NCBI RefSeq assembly: GCF_000423005.1
Contig: NZ_AUHD01000001.1
Span: 496,001 to 560,000, forward strand
Direction: 5' to 3'
Source of the DNA: Gelidibacter mesophilus DSM 14095
Lineage (GTDB): Bacteria; Bacteroidota; Bacteroidia; Flavobacteriales; Flavobacteriaceae
DNA: 64,000 nucleotides
Each line of letters starts with the position of its first letter. The first letter of the stretch is position 1. This document shows positions 20,115 to 48,799 of this stretch, piece by piece. The notes beneath the pieces were generated by a model that had not been told where the DNA came from, ran no database searches, and saw only the letters and a program-made list of their open reading frames with translations. The translations under genes were made by a program, and so were the position numbers.

Positions 20115-20178
20115 AGGACAAAAATATCCGATATATGATAATTGTCATATTTTAACTAAATTTAACGAACTAATTTTG
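20115..20178 (+). promoter_or_regulatory. dual-operator promoter of nirK
   Basis: An Rrf2-type box AGGACAAAAATATCCG (20115-20130) is followed 19 bp on, centre to centre, by the FNR-type box ATGATAATTGTCAT (20135-20148). The -7 element TAATTTTG (20171-20178) starts 29.5 bp from the FNR box centre. The layout is the same at the nos promoter. The predicted transcript starts near 20183, giving a leader of about 15 bases before the nirK ATG at 20198. Confidence 0.78.
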
Positions 20179-20197
20179 AACCATAAACAAATATAAC

Positions 20198-21646
20198 ATG
20201 AAATCACTACCATTTTTAAAAACAATATCACTGCTGTCCTTATTATTAATGTTCAGCTGTTTTAAAGAAAAGAAAACCGAATATGCTTCAACCGAAGAGA
20301 TTCCTGTCAATCGCGAGATGATTGCAGAACTAACCGCACCGCCACATGTACCGGCGCCGGTAGGGAAGCGTAAAGCGAAAAAGCTCATCGTGAAGATGGA
20401 AATTCTTGAAGCTGAAGGTGAAATTTCAAATGGGGTTCGTTATGTTTATTGGACGTTTGGAGGTTCAGTTCCAGGAAGTTTTATTAGAGCTAGAGTGGGC
20501 GATGAAATTGAATTCCATTTGCAAAATCACCCAGATAATAAGTTGCCTCATAATATTGATTTACATGCGGTCAATGGGCCAGGTGGAGGTGCAGAATCTT
20601 CTTTTGTAGCTCCAGGTCACGAAAAGGTCTTTTCCTTTAAGGTATTAGCTCCTGGATTGTTCGTTTACCATTGTGCCACTGCGCCTGTAGGAATGCATAT
20701 TGCAAACGGGATGTATGGTCTTATTTTGATAGAGCCAGAAGGCGGTTTACCTCCAGTAGATAAAGAATACTATGTGATGCAAGGTGATTTTTATACAGCA
20801 GGTCCAAATGGTGAGCGTGGTTTACAGGCTTTTGACATGCAAAAAGCTGTGGATGAAAAAGCGGATTATGTCGTGTTTAACGGAAGTGTTGGTGCATTGA
20901 CCGGTGACGGAGCCTTAACTGCTAAAGTGGGCGAGACCGTAAGACTTTTTGTTGGTAATGGCGGTCCTGGATTGGTGTCATCTTTCCACGTGATTGGTGA
21001 AATATTTGATAAGGTTCACGTTGAAGGTGGGGAACTTGTAAATAGCAACGTCCAAACCACATTGATTCCTGCCGGTGGTGCAGCCATGGTAGAATTTAAG
21101 GTAGATGTTCCTGGATCTTATGTTTTGGTGGATCACTCTATATTTAGAGCGTTCAATAAAGGTGCTTTAGGTCTGTTGAATGTTACTGGTGAAGAAAATG
21201 AAAAAATCTACTCAGGAGAGCAAATGGATAATATTTACCTTCCAGAAGGACCAGGAATCCAAAAAATGCCAACTACAGATGAGATTAAAGAATCTGATGT
21301 TCCTGCAAAATCGTTTGATGAGCAAATGAAGTTTGGAAAACAGATTTACGGTCAAACATGTATTGCTTGTCACCAAGCAGAAGGACAAGGGATCGCCAAT
21401 GCATTCCCTCCTTTGGCAAATTCAGATTATTTAAATGCGGATGTTGATAGAGCTATTGAAGCAGTACTTTACGGATTAAGTGGAGAGATTACTGTCAATG
21501 GTAATAAATACAACAGTATCATGACCGCACAAATGATTTCGCAAGAAGAAGTTGCCAATGTATTGACTTATGTTTATAATAGCTGGGGCAATAATAAAAC
21601 GGTGGTGACCACTGAAATGGTAAAGAAAGTGAAATCTAAAAAATAG
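20198..21646 (+). CDS. nirK: copper nitrite reductase fused to cytochrome c
   Basis: This periplasmic enzyme reduces nitrite to nitric oxide. The 482-residue precursor has a lipoprotein signal (LLMFSCFKE, Cys21). Two cupredoxin domains follow: [10 protein letters not shown] gives H118 (type 1 Cu), D121 (catalytic) and H123 (type 2). [17 protein letters not shown] gives H158 (type 2), and C159, H167 and M172 (type 1). FHVIG gives H264 (catalytic) and VLVDHSIF gives H313 (type 2). A C-terminal cytochrome c domain carries CIACH at 388-392 and a likely Met ligand in IMTAQM. The fused haem domain should feed electrons directly to the type 1 copper. First gene of a four-gene operon. Confidence 0.95.
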
Positions 21647-21719
21647 AGTCTCAAAATTGTGATCGAAGTCAAAATTGATTACTCTTAGAAACTAGAAATT
21701 GTTAATATAAAACCCAATT

Positions 21720-22496
21720 ATGCGTACCAATATCTTCAGATTGTCGTTTGTTTTGATCTTAATACACACAATTAGTTATGGACAGTCTGAAGGTATGGCA
21801 CGTATCGATGGAGCCCGTTACATCCCTTTATACGGAAGGGATTCTACTGTAGTTGAAGTCAAGGATTTTGATTTGGATGTTTATCCAGTGACCAATAAAG
21901 AGTATATGGCGTTTGTTGCGAAATATCCAGAATGGCAAAAATCAAACGCCAAAAAAATATTCGCTGACAAGATGTATCTCAGAAATTGGAAAAATGATCT
22001 TGAAATCAATGATGACGCCAATTTAAACAGTCCAGTGACTTATATCAGTTGGTTTGCGGCCAAGGCGTATTGCGACTGTCAGGGTAAACGTTTGCCGACT
22101 ATGGACGAATGGGAATATGCCGCCATGTCTGATGAAACCGTTAAAGATGCCCGTATCAAAAAATCATATAACGAACAGATCCTGTCATGGTACGAAGCAC
22201 CAAGATCCAATGAAAATCTGATTGGTGAAAATCCTAAGAATTTCTGGGGCGTTTATGACTTGCATGGTTTGGTCTGGGAATGGACTTCGGATTTTAATTC
22301 GGTGTTGATGTCAGGAGAATCAAGAAAAGATAACGAAAAAGACGACAATCTATTCTGTGGAAGCGCCTCGTTGGGTGCTACAGATTTAATGAATTACGCA
22401 GCGTTTATGCGCTACGCTTTTAGAGGAAGTATCAAGGCCAATTACGCGATAAAGAATCTCGGATTTAGATGTGCCAAGGATATTGAAATCCCATAA
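21720..22496 (+). CDS. nirV: NirV-like formylglycine-generating-enzyme family protein
   Basis: A 258-residue exported protein (signal about 1-21, ending SYGQS) of the FGE-sulfatase (SUMF1) fold. Recognisable segments are YPVTNKEYMAFVAKYPEW, YISWFAAKAYCDCQGKRLPT with the classic RLPT.DEWEYAA sequence, VWEWTSDFNS, and the terminal LGFRCAKD. NirV genes commonly follow nirK and are thought to help NirK maturation, though the biochemistry is unsettled. It lies 73 bases after nirK and 5 bases before the SCO gene, within one operon. Confidence 0.85.
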   Translation: MRTNIFRLSFVLILIHTISYGQSEGMARIDGARYIPLYGRDSTVVEVKDFDLDVYPVTNKEYMAFVAKYPEWQKSNAKKIFADKMYLRNWKNDLEINDDANLNSPVTYISWFAAKAYCDCQGKRLPTMDEWEYAAMSDETVKDARIKKSYNEQILSWYEAPRSNENLIGENPKNFWGVYDLHGLVWEWTSDFNSVLMSGESRKDNEKDDNLFCGSASLGATDLMNYAAFMRYAFRGSIKANYAIKNLGFRCAKDIEIP

Positions 22497-22501
22497 AAAT
22501 T

Positions 22502-23218
22502 ATGAAAAAAATAGTATTTATACTTTGTAGCCTCTTTTTTTTAGGATTGACTGCTTGTAAAAATGAAAGCCATACATCAACAGATGAGCGCGCCGTATAT
22601 CAGTGTCCGATGGCATGTGAAGGCGAGAAAACGTACGATGCACCAGGAAGTTGTCCGGTTTGTAAAATGGATCTGGCAATAGTAGAACCTTCAGAAAAGA
22701 AAGCCTCAGGTGAAATATCAGAGCTTTCCATTTTTAACCTAAAATCTACTTGGACGAATCAAAACGGAGAAGATCTCCAATTTGAAGACTTAAAAGGAGA
22801 TGTTCTGGTGACGGTCATGATTTATACCTCATGTAAAGCAGCGTGCCCAAGATTGGTGGCAGATATGAGAAATATTGAAGCAAAACTTACAAAAAACACC
22901 AAAGAAAACGTGAAAATGGTCCTTGTGAGCATCGACCCAAAAACGGATACTCCAGAACGTTTAAAAGCCTTTGCTGAAGAAAATGCTATGGACAAAGAGC
23001 CATGGGTGTTTCTTCGATCTTCAGAAGACAACACACGCGAATTTGCAGCAGTTGTAGCGGTGAATTATAAAAAGATCTCACCTATTGATTTTTCACATTC
23101 CAACATTATCACTGTTTTTAATGATCAAGGTGAAATGGTATTTCAACAAGAAGGCCTTGGGGTCAATTCTGACGCTACCATTCAGAACATAGAGAAAGCG
23201 GTAGCTTCTATTAAATAA
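22502..23218 (+). CDS. SCO1/SenC copper chaperone with N-terminal heavy-metal-binding domain
   Basis: A 238-residue lipoprotein (lipobox LGLTACKN). Residues about 35-62 form a heavy-metal-binding module with CPMACEG and GSCPVCKMDL. A thioredoxin-fold SCO domain follows from about residue 75 with YTSCKAACPRLVADM (the CxxxC copper site), VSIDPKTDTPERLKAF and a C-terminal DFSHSNIITVF that supplies the conserved His. SCO proteins deliver copper to periplasmic copper sites. Its place after nirK and nirV suggests loading of NirK, or of the CuA site of NosZ, but that is inference. Joining the two copper modules in one chain is notable. Confidence 0.88.
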   Translation: MKKIVFILCSLFFLGLTACKNESHTSTDERAVYQCPMACEGEKTYDAPGSCPVCKMDLAIVEPSEKKASGEISELSIFNLKSTWTNQNGEDLQFEDLKGDVLVTVMIYTSCKAACPRLVADMRNIEAKLTKNTKENVKMVLVSIDPKTDTPERLKAFAEENAMDKEPWVFLRSSEDNTREFAAVVAVNYKKISPIDFSHSNIITVFNDQGEMVFQQEGLGVNSDATIQNIEKAVASIK

Positions 23219-23275
23219 TTGTCATGGCTTAGGTAGTAGGTGAAATCAATAAAAAGTTCTAAAATCAGCAAAATC

Positions 23276-24535
23276 ATGAAAAAAATTATTCTTTTGATGT
23301 GCTTCGGTACGTTAAGTCAGACTATTCTTGCACAAGAATTTGGTATCGATCTCCAGTTAAGACCACGTGTGGAATATCGGCATGGGTATAAAACCTTAGT
23401 GCCTGATGATGCCGATGCAGCCACATTTGTATCACAACGCTCCCGATTGAATTTTAATTATGGCAGTGAAAAATTAAAGGCATATATCTCTTTACAAAAT
23501 GTCAGAACATGGGGAGAGGTGAGTACATTGGCTGCAAGTGATGCTAACGGAACCGCCATCCATGAAGCTTGGGCGTCGTTTAATTTGAATCCTGAATTTT
23601 CCTTTAAGATGGGGCGTCAGGAAATCATCTATGACGATTCTCGAATTTTTGGCAATGTAGATTGGGCACAAGCTGGTAGGAGCCATGATGCGTTTATAGC
23701 AACCTTTCAACCTAATTCGAAAAATCGTTTAGATCTTGGACTCGCTATAAATGAAGAAGAAGAAACGCTTTTTAAAGCCGATTATGACGTCAATAATTAT
23801 AAGGCCTTTCAATATGCATGGTACCATACCAGTTTTGAGCATTTCAATCTAAGCCTTTTAGCGCTTAATACAGGATTTACCTTTGAAGAGGACGGTGAGC
23901 AAGAAGTAGATTATAACCAAACCTTAGGCGGATTTTTATCTTTTGGCAAGAACAGATTAAAGGCAGAAGCATCCCTATATTTCCAAACGGGAAAAATCGC
24001 CGATCGGCAATTGAGCGCCTATAACCTATCAGGAAATTTACATTATTCAGTAATTCCAGAATTTACTTTTGGACTTGGTGCTGAATTGCTTTCTGGTACC
24101 GACATGGATACCACTTCAGAAAAATTAAAGTCCTTTAATCCTTTATTTGGAACCAATCATAAATTCAATGGATGGATGGATTACTTTTATGTTTCAAATC
24201 ATATTAATTCTGTGGGATTATTGGACATCAGTGTGCCTTTAAAATATCAGAAGGAGAAAGTAACGCTTATAATGGTGCCACATCTTTTTTCAGCTGCTGC
24301 AAATGTGGTTGACACTATGGGGAATAAACAGGACAACTATTTAGGAACTGAGATCGATTTTTCATTTGGTTATAAAATCGCAAATAACATTGATTTTCAA
24401 GTAGGCTATTCCCACATGTTTGCAACCGAAACCATGGAAGTGCTTAAAGGAGGCGATAAAAACAATACCACTAACTGGGCCTGGGCTATGTTTGTTTTCA
24501 AACCGAAACTGTTCACCCACAAAATAAATGACTAA
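23276..24535 (+). CDS. outer-membrane beta-barrel porin, alginate-export family-like
   Basis: A 419-residue protein from the ATG at 23276. A GTG 36 bases earlier (23240) is open but would place extra residues before the signal peptide IILLMCFGTLSQTILAQ. The mature part alternates aromatic strands and turns, for example RPRVEYRHGYKTLVP, FKMGRQEIIYDDSRIFG and NVDWAQAGRSHDA. This pattern fits the alginate_exp/porin-like barrel family of about 16-18 strands. The final residues contain FVFKPKLF. It ends the nirK operon, so nitrite or another anion is a possible substrate. That is inferred only from position. Confidence 0.75.
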   Translation: MKKIILLMCFGTLSQTILAQEFGIDLQLRPRVEYRHGYKTLVPDDADAATFVSQRSRLNFNYGSEKLKAYISLQNVRTWGEVSTLAASDANGTAIHEAWASFNLNPEFSFKMGRQEIIYDDSRIFGNVDWAQAGRSHDAFIATFQPNSKNRLDLGLAINEEEETLFKADYDVNNYKAFQYAWYHTSFEHFNLSLLALNTGFTFEEDGEQEVDYNQTLGGFLSFGKNRLKAEASLYFQTGKIADRQLSAYNLSGNLHYSVIPEFTFGLGAELLSGTDMDTTSEKLKSFNPLFGTNHKFNGWMDYFYVSNHINSVGLLDISVPLKYQKEKVTLIMVPHLFSAAANVVDTMGNKQDNYLGTEIDFSFGYKIANNIDFQVGYSHMFATETMEVLKGGDKNNTTNWAWAMFVFKPKLFTHKIND

Positions 24536-24591
24536 TTTCTTTTTTCAAGGACGTTTCTAAAAAGAAATATCCAATCACGACACATTAAATT

Positions 24592-24636
24592 ATCCTTCAA
24601 GAAATCCAGTAAGATGGGCTTGAAGGATTTTTTTTG
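24592..24636 (+). terminator. terminator of the nirK operon
   Basis: Perfect ten-base arms ATCCTTCAAG (24592-24601) and CTTGAAGGAT (24619-24628) are followed by a T run. It lies 57 bases after the porin stop and separates the nirK and nos operons. Confidence 0.85.
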
Positions 24637-24738
24637 CGCTATTCCTGATGAGATCATCATGTTTTGAGCTGTTAGTGAGCTTATTATAGATGGTTTTTAG
24701 TTGTTGGACTAATTTAAACTAAAATCACAACCTTAAAG

Positions 24739-24802
24739 AGGATAAAATTATCTGAAATATGATTATTGTCATGTATTATGAAAATCTAACGGGTTAGATT
24801 TG
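24739..24802 (+). promoter_or_regulatory. dual-operator promoter of the nos operon
   Basis: An Rrf2-type box AGGATAAAATTATCTG (24739-24754) and an FNR-type box ATGATTATTGTCAT (24759-24772) are 19 bp apart centre to centre. The -7 element TAGATTTG (24795-24802) starts 29.5 bp from the FNR box centre. Both distances equal those at nirK. Predicted transcription starts near 24807, leaving a leader of about 73 bases. Confidence 0.78.
24782..24801. promoter_or_regulatory. perfect 20-bp dyad over the nos -7 element
   Basis: AAATCTAAC (24782-24790), two G, then GTTAGATTT (24793-24801) form a perfect inverted repeat. It overlaps the -7 box TAGATTTG, so a protein bound here would block the promoter. 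nirK has no such dyad, so this would be a nos-specific control site. The binding protein is unknown. Confidence 0.5.
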
Positions 24803-24879: not shown

Positions 24880-25377
24880 ATGATAAAAATGAAAAAAACA
24901 CTAACAATTTTTACAGTATTAGGAGTCCTGCTGTTTATGGGATGTGGTGATGGCGAAAAAAAGAACACTGATCCCTATGAGAAAAGTACTCCAACTGAGC
25001 AAACAAAAGTAGTATCCAGTGTGCCAGCTTCTCAACGGGTTGATTTGACCAACAAAGGTATTGGGCCAATTAAAAACGTGGAGCTTGGTGAAACCATTGA
25101 TATGGAAATGGCAGCTAAAGGTGAGGAAGTCTATAAAATGAATTGTACGGCTTGTCATAAGGTGGACAAAAAATTCATTGGTCCAGCTCCAAAGGGTATT
25201 TTGGAAAGAAGAACTCCAGAATGGGTGATGAACATGATTTTAAACCCAGACGTAATGACCAAGGATGATCCTCTTGCCCATGATCTGTTGCTCGAGTTTA
25301 ATGGGTCTCCAATGGCAAATCAGCAAATGTCTGAAGAGCAGGCAAGACAAATGTTGGAATATTTTAGAACACTTTAA
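24880..25377 (+). CDS. monohaem cytochrome c of the nos cluster
   Basis: A 165-residue lipoprotein (lipobox LFMGCGDG; start at codon 1 or 4). After a flexible linker the cytochrome domain begins AAKGEEVYKMNCTACHKVDK with the haem motif CTACH near residue 90. It ends with a Met in NGSPMANQQMSEEQA as likely sixth ligand. Genes of this type precede nosZ in Bacteroidota nos clusters, where they are thought to deliver electrons to NosZ. First gene downstream of the dual-operator nos promoter. Confidence 0.88.
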   Translation: MIKMKKTLTIFTVLGVLLFMGCGDGEKKNTDPYEKSTPTEQTKVVSSVPASQRVDLTNKGIGPIKNVELGETIDMEMAAKGEEVYKMNCTACHKVDKKFIGPAPKGILERRTPEWVMNMILNPDVMTKDDPLAHDLLLEFNGSPMANQQMSEEQARQMLEYFRTL

Positions 25378-26058: not shown

Positions 26059-28026
26059 ATGAAAAAATCAATTAATATTTTATTTTTCTTAGCTATAGCT
26101 GCCGGTTTGGTAAGTTGTAATAATGGAAATGACCAAAGAGGTACCAAGGGCCAAGGTGGTCTTGCATCAAATGCTGCTGAAAGAGTGTATGTTGCTCCTG
26201 GTGAGCACGACGAATATTATGCATTTATGTCCGGAGGATTTAGTGGACAGTTGAGTGTTTATGGCCTGCCCTCCGGACGAATGCTCAAGGTGCTCCCAGT
26301 ATTCTCGCAAAATCCAGAAAATGGATATGGGTATACTGAAGAAACCAAACCGATGTTGAACACGTCTTACGGGTTTGTACCATGGGATGACTCTCACCAC
26401 CCTGATATTTCACAAACAAATGGTGAATTGGATGGCCGTTGGATTTTTATCAATGGAAACAACACCCCTCGAATTGCAAGAATTGGTTTGCAGAATTTCA
26501 AAACGGAAGAGATTATTGAAATCCCAAATAGTGCGGGTAACCATAGTTCTTCATTTATTACTGAAAATACGGAATATGTGGTTGCCGGAACGCGTTTCTC
26601 TGTGCCAATTCCACAAAAGGACATGCCTATAAATGAATATAAAGGGAATTTTAAAGGTTCTTTAACGTTTATTAGCGTTGATCAGGAAACAGGACGAATG
26701 GGAATTAAGTTCCAATTGATAATGCCTGGATTTAACTATGACCTGTCTCACCCCGGGCGTGATAAGAGTCATGGTTGGTTCTTCTTTACCACTTATAACA
26801 CTGAAGAAGCACACTCCTTGTTAGAGGTTAATGCATCACAAAACGATAAGGATTTTATTGCGGCCATTAACTGGAAAGTCATTGAAGAATATGTGAACAA
26901 CGGTGGTGGAAAAATGGTGCCTGCCAATTATGCACATAACGTTTTGGATGAACACACGCATACGGCAACGTCAACCATGTTGAAAGAAGTATTGACTGTA
27001 AACCCAATGGACGTTCCTGGAGCTGTTTATTTCTTGCCTACTCCAAAATCGCCGCACGGTTGTGATGTAGATCCATCAGGAGAGTATATTATTGGTAACG
27101 GTAAATTATCTGCCGACTTAACAGTGCACAGTTTTACCAAAATGCTTGATGCTATCGAAAACAAGAAATTTGATGGCGAAGCTTACGGAATTCCAATCTT
27201 AAAGTTTGAGGATATCCTTGCGGGCGTGGTTAAACAACCAGGTTTAGGGCCATTGCATACTGAATTTGATGGAAAAGGAAATGCTTATACCACCTTCTTT
27301 ATCTCTTCTGAAGTTGTCAAATGGAAAGTTGGCACTTGGGAAGTTTTAGACCGTCAACCTGTATTTTACTCTGTAGGACACGGAATGATTCCAGGTGGAA
27401 ACTCACGTAAACCGTTTGGTAAATACTTTGTAGCCTTAAACAAGATTACAAAAGATAGATACTTACCTACAGGACCAGAGTTGACCCAATCTGCACAATT
27501 GTTTGATATTAGCGGCGATAAAATGGAACTTCTTTTAGATTTCCCAACCATTGGTGAACCGCATTATGCGGCTGCTATTCCTGCGGAATTGATTGCCAAA
27601 AACTCTAGAAAGATCTTTAAACTTGCAGAAAACAAACATCCGTATGCTGCACTTAATGATTCAGAAACCAAAGTCGTGCGCGATGGAAATGAAGTTCACA
27701 TATACATGAACATGATCCGAAGCCATTTCAGTCCGGACAATATTGAAGGTGTAAAAGTAGGTGATAAGGTGTACTTCCATATCACCAACTTAGAGCAAGA
27801 CTTTGACGTTCCTCACGGTTTCGCAGTAATCGGTGCTAATAACGCTGAGATGCTTATTGTGCCAGGAGCGACTGAAACCTTAGTCTGGGAACCTAAACAA
27901 GTAGGTGTATGGCCCTTCTATTGTACAGATTTCTGTTCTGCACTTCATCAAGAAATGCAAGGTTATGTACGTGTAAGTCCAGCGGATTCAAATATCGAAT
28001 TATCTTGGAGTTTAGGCGAAGATTAA
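26059..28026 (+). CDS. nosZ: nitrous-oxide reductase, clade II (Sec-dependent)
   Basis: This terminal denitrification enzyme reduces N2O to N2 in the periplasm. The 655-residue precursor has a Sec lipoprotein-type signal (GLVSCNNGN) and no twin-arginine motif, which defines clade II. An N-terminal seven-bladed propeller carries the CuZ histidines; recognisable segments are FMSGGFSGQLSVYGLPSGR, HPDISQTNGELDGRW, DEHTHTATS and SPHGCDVDPSGEY. The C-terminal cupredoxin (about 545-645) holds CuA: VPHGFAVIG, then CTDFCSALHQEMQGY with both Cys, the His and the Met ligand. The set is complete and the length is typical. A strong hairpin follows the stop. Confidence 0.97.
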   Translation: MKKSINILFFLAIAAGLVSCNNGNDQRGTKGQGGLASNAAERVYVAPGEHDEYYAFMSGGFSGQLSVYGLPSGRMLKVLPVFSQNPENGYGYTEETKPMLNTSYGFVPWDDSHHPDISQTNGELDGRWIFINGNNTPRIARIGLQNFKTEEIIEIPNSAGNHSSSFITENTEYVVAGTRFSVPIPQKDMPINEYKGNFKGSLTFISVDQETGRMGIKFQLIMPGFNYDLSHPGRDKSHGWFFFTTYNTEEAHSLLEVNASQNDKDFIAAINWKVIEEYVNNGGGKMVPANYAHNVLDEHTHTATSTMLKEVLTVNPMDVPGAVYFLPTPKSPHGCDVDPSGEYIIGNGKLSADLTVHSFTKMLDAIENKKFDGEAYGIPILKFEDILAGVVKQPGLGPLHTEFDGKGNAYTTFFISSEVVKWKVGTWEVLDRQPVFYSVGHGMIPGGNSRKPFGKYFVALNKITKDRYLPTGPELTQSAQLFDISGDKMELLLDFPTIGEPHYAAAIPAELIAKNSRKIFKLAENKHPYAALNDSETKVVRDGNEVHIYMNMIRSHFSPDNIEGVKVGDKVYFHITNLEQDFDVPHGFAVIGANNAEMLIVPGATETLVWEPKQVGVWPFYCTDFCSALHQEMQGYVRVSPADSNIELSWSLGED

Positions 28027-28265: not shown

Positions 28266-28880
28266 ATGAAAAAAGCTGGTATTATAATGATAATAGGATC
28301 GCTTTTGTTATTAGGACTATTCAAGTTCCCCTTATGGAATATTATGCTCGGTGCACCACAGTACCCTGATCCACTTGGGATGGATATTTATATTCAAGGT
28401 ATTGAGGGTGTAGAAGAATTTGACATTCAAAACATTGATGGTTTGAACCACTATATTGGAATGAAAACGATTCCGAAAGTTGAAGAAATGTGGGAATTTG
28501 AAGTGTTTCCTATGGTTATAGGAATTATGGTAGCTCTTGGAGTAATCATTGGCGTACTTGGTTTCTTTGGAAAATTAAGTTACAAATGGTTTCTTGGCTG
28601 GTTTGTACTCATGTCTATTCTTGGCATCTTGGGAATGTATGATTTTAACTTATGGCTCATAGAATACGGAACTGATCTCGATCCAAAGGCCATCATGAAA
28701 CTTGAAAACTTGGATGGAACGCCCATGACCTATAAACCGCCATTAATAGGATATCAAAAAATGTTGAATTTTGATGTTGATTCTTGGCCTGGAGCGGGTG
28801 CCTATATGATATTTTTCGGCATGTTGCTTACCGTAGTTGCCTTCTTTGTAGGTAAAAGCGCTTCTAAAAAAGTGGCTTAA
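28266..28880 (+). CDS. nos-cluster integral membrane protein
   Basis: A 204-residue protein with about four membrane helices (near 3-22, 84-104, 109-128 and 178-198). Between helices 1 and 2 lies a periplasmic segment PQYPDPLGMDIYIQGI. Between helices 3 and 4 lies KPPLIGYQKMLNFDVDSWPG. Proteins of this shape are found between nosZ and nosL in Bacteroidota nos clusters, but I know of no assigned function. Conserved Met, Asp and Tyr in the periplasmic parts would suit a maturation or electron-transfer role. It follows the nosZ terminator, so it may have its own promoter; none was clearly recognised. Confidence 0.7.
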   Translation: MKKAGIIMIIGSLLLLGLFKFPLWNIMLGAPQYPDPLGMDIYIQGIEGVEEFDIQNIDGLNHYIGMKTIPKVEEMWEFEVFPMVIGIMVALGVIIGVLGFFGKLSYKWFLGWFVLMSILGILGMYDFNLWLIEYGTDLDPKAIMKLENLDGTPMTYKPPLIGYQKMLNFDVDSWPGAGAYMIFFGMLLTVVAFFVGKSASKKVA

Positions 28881-35828: not shown

Positions 35829-36290
35829 TCACACCCAAAACTCATCGTCTAATTTGTCCACAAAGCCCTCTTCATGATGAACTTCTGCGATGTGGGCCAT
35901 TTGCTCCTCGGTAGCGACTTTTTGTATTTCAGGAAATAAGGTGCGTTCCTCAAAACGGATGTGTTGCTCTAGTTCCTCTTCAATTTTATGTAATGATTTT
36001 TCTATGTCCTCCGTATCTGCAAACAGACGTTTTAGGCGTCGGTGTTCTGCTAAAGCACGTTTGACCAACTCATTGCTTCCATCCATAATAGAAAAGATAT
36101 GGGTTTCTTCAAGCTCAAAATGAGGAATCAAGTGGTTTTTAAAAAACCAATCTGCGTAGATTTTGATGCGCTCTGCTTCAACGTTTTTACTGAAGCCACT
36201 TCTGATTTTCCAAGACAATAAAAGACCATGGTGATGTTCTCTACTAATGGGTTGGAGAGCTTTATGTCGTTTTAAGGGTTTCTGTGTCAT
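35829..36290 (-). CDS. hemerythrin-domain protein
   Basis: A 153-residue cytoplasmic four-helix protein. The di-iron pattern is present: ISREHHHGLLLSWK, HLIPHFELEETHIF (HxxxE), LAEHRRLKRLF, HIRFEERTLFPEI (HxxxE) and a final HHEEG. Hemerythrin-like proteins bind O2 or NO at a di-iron site. The gene overlaps the histidine-rich membrane protein gene by 29 bases and lies downstream of it, so they are coupled. Together with Ric and NirK nearby, a role in NO handling is likely, but this is inference. Confidence 0.85.
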   Translation of the reverse strand: MTQKPLKRHKALQPISREHHHGLLLSWKIRSGFSKNVEAERIKIYADWFFKNHLIPHFELEETHIFSIMDGSNELVKRALAEHRRLKRLFADTEDIEKSLHKIEEELEQHIRFEERTLFPEIQKVATEEQMAHIAEVHHEEGFVDKLDDEFWV

Positions 36291-37467
36291 AATTTCTAAG
36301 ATTTATAATAAAAAACAAAATGCCCAAGGGCAAAAGAATGCTGCAAAAAAGCAGGATCAGGTAATAGTGAGGCAACATGCCTAAGTTTAAATAGTAATAC
36401 ACACCTTGGAGCAGGAGTAGAAATTCTGTGGATAAAATCCCCAATATAAAACTATAGACTCCTAAGGAAAGACTTTTTGTATTTTTAGTTTTTGGATATT
36501 TTTGTAATAAAAAAGCAAACAAAAATCCGCTGATGACACCTAACATCATAAGATGGATAAAACCAATGACAAAGTTACGGTATTGATAGGCCATGTCACC
36601 AACTTCAGGTAAAATTGAAGCCGCTTGTAGGACAATTTTCAAGAGAAATGAAAGGAGTGCTAAACCGTACATCCATTTGGTCAATTTTGAAATCCTCGAC
36701 CAAAACTCAGTCCAATGAGGCTTTAGTAATTGTATAAAATAATAACCAGCTAACAGTTGCAATAAAATGCCCATTCCATTGATCCAAAGCAACAGCGGAT
36801 GAAACGCGAACCAACTTATGATTAAAGACAATGTAAGAATTGTGGAAATCACAAGGGTATTAAAAAACCGGCTTCCTAGCATCCAATCATCAATAGGAAA
36901 TTGATGCAGAAATAGAGCTAATACACCAAACATAAACCAACCGTTAAATTGGAAATGCAAGAAAAACTGAATCGAAATATTATAAAATGCCGAGGCGGAT
37001 CCCAAAATACCAGCAGCAGGGCCAAGGCACCATACACCAATGGTGGATAGCACCATAAACACCAACGCAGCTTTAAGGAGCTTGCGGATAAGAGGGGAGG
37101 CGACTTGGTGATTTTTCCAGACCAACCTCACAAAATAATAACTACAAAAAATGTGTAGGGTTGAGAAGCTAATAGAGATTGCGGCATAGCCTATAAATGG
37201 AAAGCTCACCATCATACCGACAACCGCAATTTGCGTCACCCAGAACAACCGGGTATAAATGGGTTTTTTATCTGGAATGAAATAATGAACAATAAATAGA
37301 TATAACATCAAATAGACCCAACCCAACATGGCAACATGAGAATGGGCATGGGTAAGGTATCTATAATTGATGGCAATTGGATCTACAAAAATATAGCGCA
37401 ATGTCAACCCCATTAAGGCGGCTATCAAAAAATTGATGAGACATACACCAATAAGTTTTTTTTGCAT
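36262..37467 (-). CDS. 12-TM histidine-rich membrane protein, haem-copper-oxidase subunit I-like
   Basis: A 401-residue integral membrane protein of about 12 helices with conserved His at helix positions. Examples are THAHSHVAMLGWVYLML (near 40-55), FFLHFQFNGWFMFGVLALFL (near 168-187) and FVIGFIHLMMLGVISGF (near 308-324). The spacing resembles haem-ligand helices of cbb3-type subunit I and also recalls NnrS. It lacks the full HCO set, so it is probably not an oxidase. A haem-binding NO- or O2-responsive role is inferred from the overlap with hemerythrin and the closeness to ric and rrf2. Confidence 0.6.
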   Translation of the reverse strand: MQKKLIGVCLINFLIAALMGLTLRYIFVDPIAINYRYLTHAHSHVAMLGWVYLMLYLFIVHYFIPDKKPIYTRLFWVTQIAVVGMMVSFPFIGYAAISISFSTLHIFCSYYFVRLVWKNHQVASPLIRKLLKAALVFMVLSTIGVWCLGPAAGILGSASAFYNISIQFFLHFQFNGWFMFGVLALFLHQFPIDDWMLGSRFFNTLVISTILTLSLIISWFAFHPLLLWINGMGILLQLLAGYYFIQLLKPHWTEFWSRISKLTKWMYGLALLSFLLKIVLQAASILPEVGDMAYQYRNFVIGFIHLMMLGVISGFLFAFLLQKYPKTKNTKSLSLGVYSFILGILSTEFLLLLQGVYYYLNLGMLPHYYLILLFCSILLPLGILFFIINLRNYDTETLKTT

Positions 37468-37635: not shown

Positions 37636-38367
37636 CTATTTAAGAGCTTTCTCAAGCTTTATTGCTTCAAGAAACAAGATGTTATTTTCTAAGTGGATGT
37701 GCAAGTGCAAGTCTTTTTCAAATTCGTCCAGCATTGCATAGGTTACTTTATAAGTATTACAGGCATCAGCTGGTGGTGTGTAGTTATTGGTTAGTGCAGC
37801 TATTTTTCTGAAACGATCGCCTTCAGCATCATGGTCATGTTTCATCATTTCAATAGGGCTTTCAACAGATCCAAATTGTGGTGATTCCACTGTAGTGCCT
37901 TCTGATTTTGCTTTAACCATACGTTTGATAAAAGGGAAGAGGATTAGTTCTTCTTTTTTCATATGTGATGCCATTTCTTTCGAACAGCCGATAAATAGTG
38001 CCGTAACTTCTAAAAGCTCCGGATGTCTCTGACCGTGTACTTTACAGAGTTTATCTAAAAACTGACGCAATACTGGTGATTTTTCTTCAACATAGCGGTG
38101 ATGTTTCTTTTCGATATATTCTGCAAGTAGATCTAATGGCCATGATTTATAATCGATGGATTGTTGGTTATTTGAATTTTGGATATCTTCCAATTTAGCC
38201 AATAATTCATCAGAATCGATATTGTTTTTTGCGCATACCTCTTCAATTGTTCTATCACCTTTACAACAAAAATCAATCCCATAGTTTGAGAAAATAGCTG
38301 CTGTTCTGAAATCTTCAGCCACATATTGACCGATCTGTTTTTGTGAATCTTTATGTAATGTTTCCAT
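37636..38367 (-). CDS. ric: iron-sulfur cluster repair di-iron protein (Ric/YtfE/ScdA)
   Basis: A 243-residue cytoplasmic protein that repairs Fe-S clusters damaged by NO or oxidants. The N-terminal ScdA_N domain has GQYVAEDFRTAAIFSNYGID and FCCKGDRTIEEVC with the CC pair. A C-terminal hemerythrin-like domain carries EKKHHRYVEE, KVHGQRHPEL, KKEELILFPF, HDHDAEGDRF and HLHIHLENNILF for the di-iron site. Length and order are standard. An Rrf2-type box lies 65 bases upstream of its start, and the rrf2 gene is next upstream on the same strand. Confidence 0.93.
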   Translation of the reverse strand: METLHKDSQKQIGQYVAEDFRTAAIFSNYGIDFCCKGDRTIEEVCAKNNIDSDELLAKLEDIQNSNNQQSIDYKSWPLDLLAEYIEKKHHRYVEEKSPVLRQFLDKLCKVHGQRHPELLEVTALFIGCSKEMASHMKKEELILFPFIKRMVKAKSEGTTVESPQFGSVESPIEMMKHDHDAEGDRFRKIAALTNNYTPPADACNTYKVTYAMLDEFEKDLHLHIHLENNILFLEAIKLEKALK

Positions 38368-38432: not shown

Positions 38433-38448
38433 AGGACAAATTAGTCCT
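38433..38448 (-). promoter_or_regulatory. Rrf2-type box upstream of ric
   Basis: AGGACAAATTAGTCCT has five-base arms AGGAC/GTCCT around an AATT core. It matches the boxes at nirK, nos and rrf2. It lies between the rrf2 stop and the ric start. A matching -7 element could not be picked out with confidence here. Confidence 0.7.
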
Positions 38449-38468: not shown

Positions 38469-38903
38469 TTAGAGTTTTAAAAAGCTCACCCCAGATTTTA
38501 TATCGAGTGCCAATTGTTCAAGATTGGTACTTTCCAGCATGTGCTTTAATTGATTTCTTATCCCTTTAAATTGATCGTGCACAGGACATGGATGGTTTTC
38601 ATCACACACGTGCAACCCCAATCCACAGCCGTGATAAATGCTATCTCCATCAATGGCTTTTACAATTTGTGAGAGTTTAATGGTTGCGATATCACCTTTC
38701 TCAATCTCAAACCCACCATAAGCACCTTTAACTGATTTGATGATCTTATTTCGTACCAAATCCTGAAGGATTTTGGCGGTAAACGCTTCCGGCGAATCAA
38801 TTTCTTTTGCAATTTCCTTAAGGCTGACACGGTTACCGTCATAAGAGCTCATCGCTATATAAATAGAGGCTTTAAGACCATACTCGCAAGCTTTAGAAAA
38901 CAT
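38469..38903 (-). CDS. Rrf2 family regulator, probable Fe-S (NsrR/IscR-like)
   Basis: A 144-residue DNA-binding regulator. The winged-helix part has MFSKACEYGLKASIYIAMSS and RVSLKEIAKEIDSPEAFTAK, ending with the recognition segment GAYGGFEIEK. Three Cys near residues 102-116 lie in YHGCGLGLHVCDENHPCPVH (C-x6-C-x5-C), the position of the Fe-S ligands of NsrR and IscR. A box of its own type overlaps its promoter, so it is probably autoregulated. Boxes at ric, nirK and nos suggest it senses NO or redox state. Sensing NO is inference. Confidence 0.88.
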   Translation of the reverse strand: MFSKACEYGLKASIYIAMSSYDGNRVSLKEIAKEIDSPEAFTAKILQDLVRNKIIKSVKGAYGGFEIEKGDIATIKLSQIVKAIDGDSIYHGCGLGLHVCDENHPCPVHDQFKGIRNQLKHMLESTNLEQLALDIKSGVSFLKL

Positions 38904-38925: not shown

Positions 38926-38964
38926 CAAAGATAGTATTAATTTTAATTCGGACAAAATTATCCG
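38926..38964 (-). promoter_or_regulatory. Rrf2-type box and -7 element of the rrf2 gene
   Basis: On the minus strand, the box CGGATAATTTTGTCCG (38964-38949; plus strand CGGACAAAATTATCCG) lies upstream of the -7 element TATCTTTG (38933-38926). The box centre is 23.5 bp from the start of the -7 element, about -35. It therefore covers the -33 region, a repressor-type position, unlike at nirK and nos. Confidence 0.68.
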
Positions 38965-48025: not shown

Positions 48026-48069
48026 CAAAGGTCGGAAATCATTGCCAGTTAAACTATGATTTTTGTCAT
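48026..48069 (-). promoter_or_regulatory. FNR-type box between ccoI and the fnr-like gene
   Basis: The box ATGATTTTTGTCAT (48056-48069 on the plus strand) lies in the divergent spacer. On the minus strand GACCTTTG (48033-48026) sits at exactly the 29.5-bp distance and matches TAnnTTTG except for the first T. The box therefore most likely serves ccoI. On the plus side no -7 element stands at that distance, so control of the fnr-like gene is uncertain. Confidence 0.68.
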
Positions 48070-48103
48070 GTTTTACGTAGTTTTGACAATCAACAATAAA
48101 GGT

Positions 48104-48781
48104 ATGGGTAGATGTGAACAATGTATTGCACGTCAGCTAAATTCGATGAAAACTCTTACAAAAGAAGAGATGAAAGAAGTTACTGCCTGCAAGTCGACAT
48201 TTGTATTTAAAAAAGGCGATATCATTTTTGGAGAAAACGAATTGCTCAATGGTGTTTTTTGTGTAAAAGAAGGTCTTTGTAAAATGACCAAGCTGAGTGC
48301 CAATGGGAAGGAACATACGGTTAAATTAATGGGCAAAGGCGATTTGATCGGCCAACGTTCCATCATCAGTAATGAAAGAACGCATTTAAGTGCTGTAGCA
48401 TTAAATGATATTGAAGTTTGCTTTGTGCCAAAAGATCAAATTTTGAGCAGTATTAAGACCAATCAGGAATTTTCTTTTGACGTGTTGCAGAATTTGGCCC
48501 AGGACTTAAGAGAGGCCGAAGGTGATCTCATCAATATGGCATAAAAGACCGTAAAAGAACGTTTGGCTGAAACCATAATCTATATTGGAAAAACGTTTGG
48601 TGTGGATGCTGAGGGTTATCTAAACGTTAACCTGTCCCGTGAGGATTATGCCAGTATTGTTGGCACCGCAACTGAATCTGCTATCCGGGTACTGTCATAG
48701 TTTAAAAAGGAAGGTCTTATTTCTACCTCCGGAAAGAAGATAAGAATTGAAAACTTGAAATACTTGGAACGCGTCATATAA
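48104..48781 (+). pseudogene. FNR/CRP-family regulator gene with two in-frame stops
   Basis: The start is the ATG at 48104 (GRCEQCIARQLNSM). An ATG at 48056 is in frame but lies inside the FNR-type box and is unlikely. Codons 1-146 encode an intact sensor domain (cyclic-nucleotide fold, KGDIIFGENELLNGVF and MGKGDLIGQRSII). TAA at 48542-48544 then ends translation. The same frame continues KTVKERLAETIIYIGKTFGV, then LSREDYASIVGTATESAIRV with the FNR helix-turn-helix, is broken again by TAG (48698-48700), and ends at TAA 48779-48781. The full frame is 226 codons, normal for FNR. Both stops could come from single C-to-T changes of Gln codons. Confidence 0.82.
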
Positions 48782-48799
48782 TTTGATCAATTGAGATTC

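Follow-up and report, generated by a model that had tools for sequence, protein, structure and literature searches.

A shared FNR-type and Rrf2-type promoter layout at nirK and nos of Gelidibacter mesophilus suggests two-signal control of nitrite and nitrous oxide reduction

Do two denitrification operons whose promoters are built to the same measurements answer to the same pair of regulators? The question arises from a 64,000-nucleotide stretch of the Gelidibacter mesophilus DSM 14095 genome (contig NZ_AUHD01000001.1, positions 496,001 to 560,000; hereafter the window), which holds nirK, encoding a copper nitrite reductase, and the nos operon for nitrous oxide reduction. At both promoters a GGAYAAAWWTATCY palindrome is followed by an ATGAN6TCAT palindrome of the FNR type and then by TAnnTTTG, the -7 element (Table 1). 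The centres of the two palindromes are 19 bp apart at both promoters, and in each of them 29.5 bp separate the FNR centre from the first base of TAnnTTTG; the box coordinates thus bear out the three-part layout with identical distances that an earlier note on this DNA had claimed. That note also held that the other sequence of the two promoters differs, which is correct upstream, where 19 of 60 bases are identical, and less so between the FNR box and the -7 element, where 13 of 22 bases agree, more than the note had implied. In Flavobacterium psychrophilum, TAnnTTTG occupies positions -12 to -5, as given in an excerpt of the published work (PMC9723704). Because we take TAnnTTTG to have that position here, the FNR-type box would be centred at -41.5, where the earlier note had put it, and the Rrf2-type box at -60.5; on that assumption the conserved distance between FNR box and TAnnTTTG would fit class II FNR-type promoters.

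The signal in these promoters is the combination of the boxes together with its place, and not either box alone. With up to three mismatches the Rrf2 box matches the window 25 times against 22.7 expected, and the FNR box, with up to one mismatch, matches it 65 times against 54 expected; across the whole genome, the Rrf2 box with up to one mismatch gives 65 matches versus 73 for the reversed pattern. Single boxes were dropped as evidence, since each occurs at chance level in the window and the Rrf2 box does so genome-wide as well. Three more exact Rrf2-box matches exist in the genome, on contigs C2, C4 and C6 (that on C4 inside an open reading frame), and inspection by eye, from 80 bp ahead of each match to 146 bp beyond it, showed no ATGAN6TCAT. 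The check that had been proposed, a search of related genomes for the pair at 19 bp, was run gene-blind over 397 genomes from the family with a strict box pair, built from the window's own two sites, and 0 to 30 bases between the boxes. It returned 12 matches in 11 genomes, two of them the window's own, and the reversed-pattern control returned none in the same genomes. All 12 pairs precede nos (10) or nirK (2), as do 10 of 10 when the window's own are set aside, and in all 12 the Rrf2 box is on the far side of FNR. Exactly five bases separate the boxes in nine of the 12, which is 19 bp centre to centre (seven of the ten outside the window); one of the remaining pairs is at 30 bp and two are at 27 bp.

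To describe the layout beyond strict pairs, we read the nos promoters at the best 80 of 408 nosZ loci, of which 66 have an FNR-type box and a -7 element in register. Loci of nos and nirK alike were left out if TAnnTTTN did not stand at the demanded distance from an FNR-type box; some of these are contig ends, and in some the -7 element is one base off. The relatives' palindrome, RGAYWWWWWWRTCY, was sought with up to one mismatch and, on the upstream side, at 14 to 45 bp from the FNR centre. It is present upstream in 50 of the 66 promoters: 32 at -19, nine at -20, two at -18 and one at -17, with five at -27 to -30, about one helical turn further out, one at -33 and none between -21 and -26. Shuffling the 53 upstream bases base by base gives a mean of 1.6 and a maximum of 6 such promoters per set. 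With 43 of 66 at -18, -19 or -20, the spacing is conserved at nos, as had been anticipated. The genera in this range include Gelidibacter, Aequorivita, Bizionia, Arenibacter and Christiangramia as well as Maribacter, Flagellimonas, Tenacibaculum, Jejuia and Pricia; in the four Lutibacter nos loci the Rrf2 box is about one turn further out, and no Rrf2 box with up to one mismatch was found in the nos loci of Salegentibacter, Zunongwangia and Altibacter, among others. One nos promoter (L086) has a Rrf2 box both upstream and downstream. Since the register filter is circular for the 29.5-bp offset itself, we recounted that offset without requiring it: among promoters with a strict FNR box, 55 of 65 at nos and 22 of 38 at nirK have TAnnTTTG at 29.5 bp.

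The nirK promoters give a different picture. NirK scores above its curated cut-off in 72 of the 397 genomes, and 70 of the 72 matches outside the window's genome were read upstream; 43 of these 70 have an FNR-type box plus a -7 element in register. The Rrf2 palindrome is upstream in eight of the 43 (-19 in six, -18 and -17 in one each) and downstream in 25, where it lies 53 to 62 bp past the FNR centre, which corresponds to about +12 to +21 relative to the inferred transcription start. One promoter with a weak match at -41 was assigned to neither class, nine have no box in either place and none has both. Spacing is tight in the upstream class and loose in the downstream class. The layout is thus not common to nirK generally. 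In a NirK tree with 34 rows, four changes between the two box states are needed, at least three of them on well-supported branches, and the nirK promoters of other genera with the box at -19 (codes g14, g97, g108 and g115) occupy separate places.

Which protein would bind the palindrome? The genome has two Rrf2 genes, one of which, rrf2, stands before ric, a gene for Fe-S (iron-sulfur) cluster repair. We compared 30 orthologues of this rrf2, the window copy plus the next 29 in the match list. The palindrome is found in the gene's own promoter in 29 of the 30 and before 29 of the 30 ric genes adjoining them. Within the rrf2 promoters it is centred at -35 to -37 in 27 of 29, as measured to the first TAnnTTTG downstream of the box, since 19 of the 29 boxes contain TAnnTTTG themselves. 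In those 19 (among loci L200-L229) the motif is on the sense strand, and the operator overlaps a possible second -7 element. We conclude that the palindrome is likely the operator of the ric-linked Rrf2 protein. In at least 36 of 73 cases nirK has an rrf2 orthologue within 20 kb; in the window the distance is about 18 kb. At 22 of the 66 nos promoters another, related Rrf2 gene runs divergently from nos.

The window's Rrf2 protein matches PF02082 (E 1.2e-24), and, at the level of residues, the pattern C-x6-C-x5-C-x2-H is present in 52 of 52 proteins (30/30 window-type and 22/22 nos-adjacent). Five residues lie between the first two cysteines of IscR, unlike the six found here. The protein resembles IscR in its Rrf2 fold, its three cysteines and a histidine three residues after the last of them (52/52), which corresponds to the IscR ligand His-107, a residue said in an excerpt of the source not to be conserved in NsrR (PMC4432287). 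An IscR-kind histidine, the absence of which would mark NsrR, is thus present. The protein reaches neither curated model, scoring 30.8 bits against 182 for NsrR and 52.8 bits against a cut-off of 207.55 for IscR. Because it has the IscR-like histidine yet scores under both cut-offs, it is likely an Fe-S Rrf2 protein of neither named family. The palindrome common to rrf2, ric, nirK and nos, RGAYWWWWWWRTCY, does not match the NsrR operator consensus gATGyAT-N5-ATrCATc (PMC1274295) on direct comparison, no separate scan with that consensus having been made.

Taken together, these findings make it probable, though far from certain, that an Fe-S Rrf2 repressor acts on the FNR-type class II promoters of nirK and nos, which would then need two signals. 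An FNR-type activator at about -41.5 would drive both genes as class II promoters, and the Rrf2 protein encoded with ric would bind the palindrome 19 bp upstream of the activator site, at about -60.5. Studies of CRP and FNR place the alpha C-terminal domain of RNA polymerase on the DNA beside an activator at -41.5. Rrf2 at -60.5 would occupy the DNA where that domain would touch, and in its cluster-bearing form it would repress, either by blocking activation or by holding the activator. Such action on the activator or the adjoining polymerase domain would explain why the upstream box keeps so tight a phase. Rrf2 would be released when its cluster is damaged, nitric oxide being the likeliest cause, and both operons would then depend on the activator signal and the nitrogen-oxide signal together; nitric oxide is suggested here because the Fe-S repair gene ric appears to share a regulon with nirK and nos. 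We infer binding, regulatory sign, signal and protein contact alike from sequence comparison. A more specific proposal, which we hold tentatively and consider nearly as apt to be right as wrong, is that Rrf2 serves as a phase-dependent anti-activator upstream of a class II FNR-type activator, and that among the promoters of nirK orthologues its operator has switched place repeatedly, between -60.5 and about +15, with the sign of regulation kept. We know of no member of the Rrf2 family with a site just upstream of a class II FNR-type activator.

The same upstream site could instead serve co-activation, with Rrf2 at -60.5 touching the activator or RNA polymerase and both proteins being needed. 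The tight phase of the upstream box is what contact needs, and the ligand pattern resembles that of IscR, which activates some promoters. However, the operator overlaps the core promoter (the -33 region) at rrf2 and lies just past the inferred start in 25 of 43 nirK promoters, both of them places for a repressor, and repression fits better for that reason. The NirK tree also implies at least three moves of the box; since a change of sign at each move is less likely, repression from both places is the likelier account. Co-activation thus seems unlikely to us, a judgement that sequence alone does not settle. Less likely still, the nos box would be mainly a self-regulation site of the divergent Rrf2 gene, its spacing inherited and not selected for nos control. 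With one exception among the 22 nos promoters that have it, that gene starts at a distance of 41 to 88 bp from the FNR centre, and 19 of the 22 carry the box; yet the box is also kept in 31 of the 44 nos promoters that lack a divergent Rrf2 gene, and the window's nirK has it at equal distance with no divergent gene beside it. We think it equally improbable that the nirK promoter of the genus is a recent copy of the nos promoter and owes its identical spacing to copying rather than selection, for although the stretch between FNR box and -7 element agrees as described above and a close nirK relative (L184) has its box downstream, few bases agree upstream and the nirK promoters at -19 in the four other genera stand apart on the NirK tree.

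Several observations weigh against the proposed Rrf2 repression of FNR-type promoters. No FNR box plus -7 element in register is present at 14 of the 80 nos and 27 of the 70 nirK loci, and among the promoters that do have them, 16 of 66 at nos and 9 of 43 at nirK show no recognisable Rrf2 box at either searched place; all these promoter counts come from mutually related sequences. Even in the window's own genus the upstream distance at nirK is 17, 18, 19 and 19, not strictly 19. A strict downstream scan of the 397 genomes adds little, with three matches, two of them at nirK, and one for the reversed-pattern control. The ligand pattern of the Rrf2 protein is nearer to IscR than to NsrR, and therefore nitric oxide is not assured as the signal. 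Finally, the fnr gene of the window, which adjoins a cbb3 oxidase cluster and copA, is interrupted by two in-frame stops that cut off the DNA-binding part, and in 6 of the 43 nirK genomes that carry an FNR-type box an fnr of this kind was not found.

An orthologue of fnr is present in the other 37 of those 43 genomes (counted among nirK genomes only), and an FNR-type box lies 14.5 or 15.5 bp from TAnnTTT[GA] before fnr in seven of eight relatives (L231-L238) and at 15.5 bp in the window (48056-48085). Because an FNR-type box also stands before fnr itself, the box is probably the site of the fnr-encoded protein, and the orthologue is a good candidate for the activator in the family. The position of the box before fnr suggests self-repression. 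In the window's genome an intact cbb3-linked Fnr protein was not found. The rest of the interrupted frame still resembles its relatives, intact copies are present in G013, G319 and others, and the stops could be a sequencing fault. The orthologue was also not found in two of three other genomes of the window's genus, where the nirK boxes remain. The low-oxygen control by FNR that the earlier note had envisaged is thus doubtful in this strain, and another Crp/Fnr protein may act at the window's boxes. Among the Crp/Fnr candidates for this role is a fusion of a receiver domain with a Crp-type protein (L125; genome G000, contig C3, near 74400), which is also present in the three other searched genomes of the genus.

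Table 1. Promoter elements and genes of the window discussed in the text (positions in the window).
Feature	Position	Strand	Basis
Predicted Rrf2-type operator, nirK promoter, GGACAAAAATATCC	20116..20129	+	Centre about -60.5; orthologous promoters compared
FNR-type box, nirK promoter, ATGATAATTGTCAT	20135..20148	+	Centre about -41.5; offset to -7 element
-7 element, nirK promoter, TAATTTTG	20171..20178	+	TAnnTTTG position from PMC9723704 (excerpt)
nirK, copper nitrite reductase with C-terminal cytochrome c domain	20198..21646	+	TIGR02376, 342 bits against cut-off 296.3; Pfam
Predicted Rrf2-type operator, nos promoter, GGATAAAATTATCT	24740..24753	+	
FNR-type box, nos promoter, ATGATTATTGTCAT	24759..24772	+	
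-7 element, nos promoter, TAGATTTG	24795..24802	+	
Cytochrome c gene, opens nos operon	24880..25377	+	Pfam; near nosZ in most of 80 loci
nosZ, Sec-dependent (clade II) nitrous oxide reductase	26059..28026	+	TIGR04246, 945.1 bits
ric/ytfE/scdA, Fe-S cluster repair protein	37636..38367	-	TIGR03652, 244.9 bits against cut-off 204.7
Predicted operator before ric, GGACTAATTTGTCC on - strand	38434..38447	-	Box in 29/30 ric genes including the window's
rrf2, proposed operator-binding regulator, three Cys plus His	38469..38903	-	PF02082; C-x6-C-x5-C-x2-H in 30/30 window-type proteins
Predicted operator in rrf2's own promoter	38950..38963	-	Centre near -36; box in 29/30 orthologues including the window's
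fnr-like gene adjoining cbb3 oxidase cluster, two in-frame stops	48056..48784	+	

Among the neighbouring genes, the window's nosZ is 96% identical to that of Gelidibacter japonicus. A protein of 204 amino acids without a Pfam match (28266-28880, + strand) follows nosZ in the 80 nosZ loci listed, and one of 401 amino acids (36262-37467, - strand), for which there is no more than a very weak hint of COX1 (E 0.011), is encoded near ric or nos in many relatives.

In Bacteroidota, clade II nosZ is regarded as an important nitrous oxide sink whose control has been little studied. The fixed distance between activator and Rrf2 sites suggests that two signals switch on the breakdown of nitrite and nitrous oxide in a marine family. 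It also points to a concrete and testable regulon (rrf2, ric, nirK and nos) with a defined predicted operator in many genera of that family. Since one operator seemingly works from two places, these promoters form a natural set that could help to tell whether repression comes about by contact or by blocking. A literature search, with most subscription journals outside it, found no report in Bacteroidota of this operator, of its -60.5 place, of the FNR-Rrf2 layout or of the regulon. What is new is the arrangement; dual control by an FNR-type and an Rrf2 protein is already known.

One of the closest parallels is aniA (nirK) of Neisseria, which FNR activates and NsrR, an Rrf2 protein inactivated by nitric oxide, represses (PMC1802743, PMC10187123). 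In both cases a copper nitrite reductase gene stands under an FNR-type activator plus an Rrf2 repressor, the latter predicted here. Neisseria, however, belongs to another phylum and has NarP and Fur acting in addition, and the excerpts of those two papers describe for aniA neither a fixed 19-bp operator upstream of FNR nor a layout shared with nos. Rrf2 regulators are reported to be enriched on scaffolds with clade II nos (PMC6264515); the excerpt of that work describes no operator, spacing or mechanism. The window's rrf2 lies about 10 kb from nosZ together with ric. For nirK and norB of Chromobacterium violaceum, an upstream DNR site and a downstream NsrR site have been predicted (PMC1274295, in excerpt). 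An FNR-type site with a downstream Rrf2 operator is likewise what we see in 25 of 43 flavobacterial nirK promoters, whereas in the window's promoters and in those of nos in its relatives the operator lies on the opposite, upstream side of the activator and keeps a fixed phase to it.

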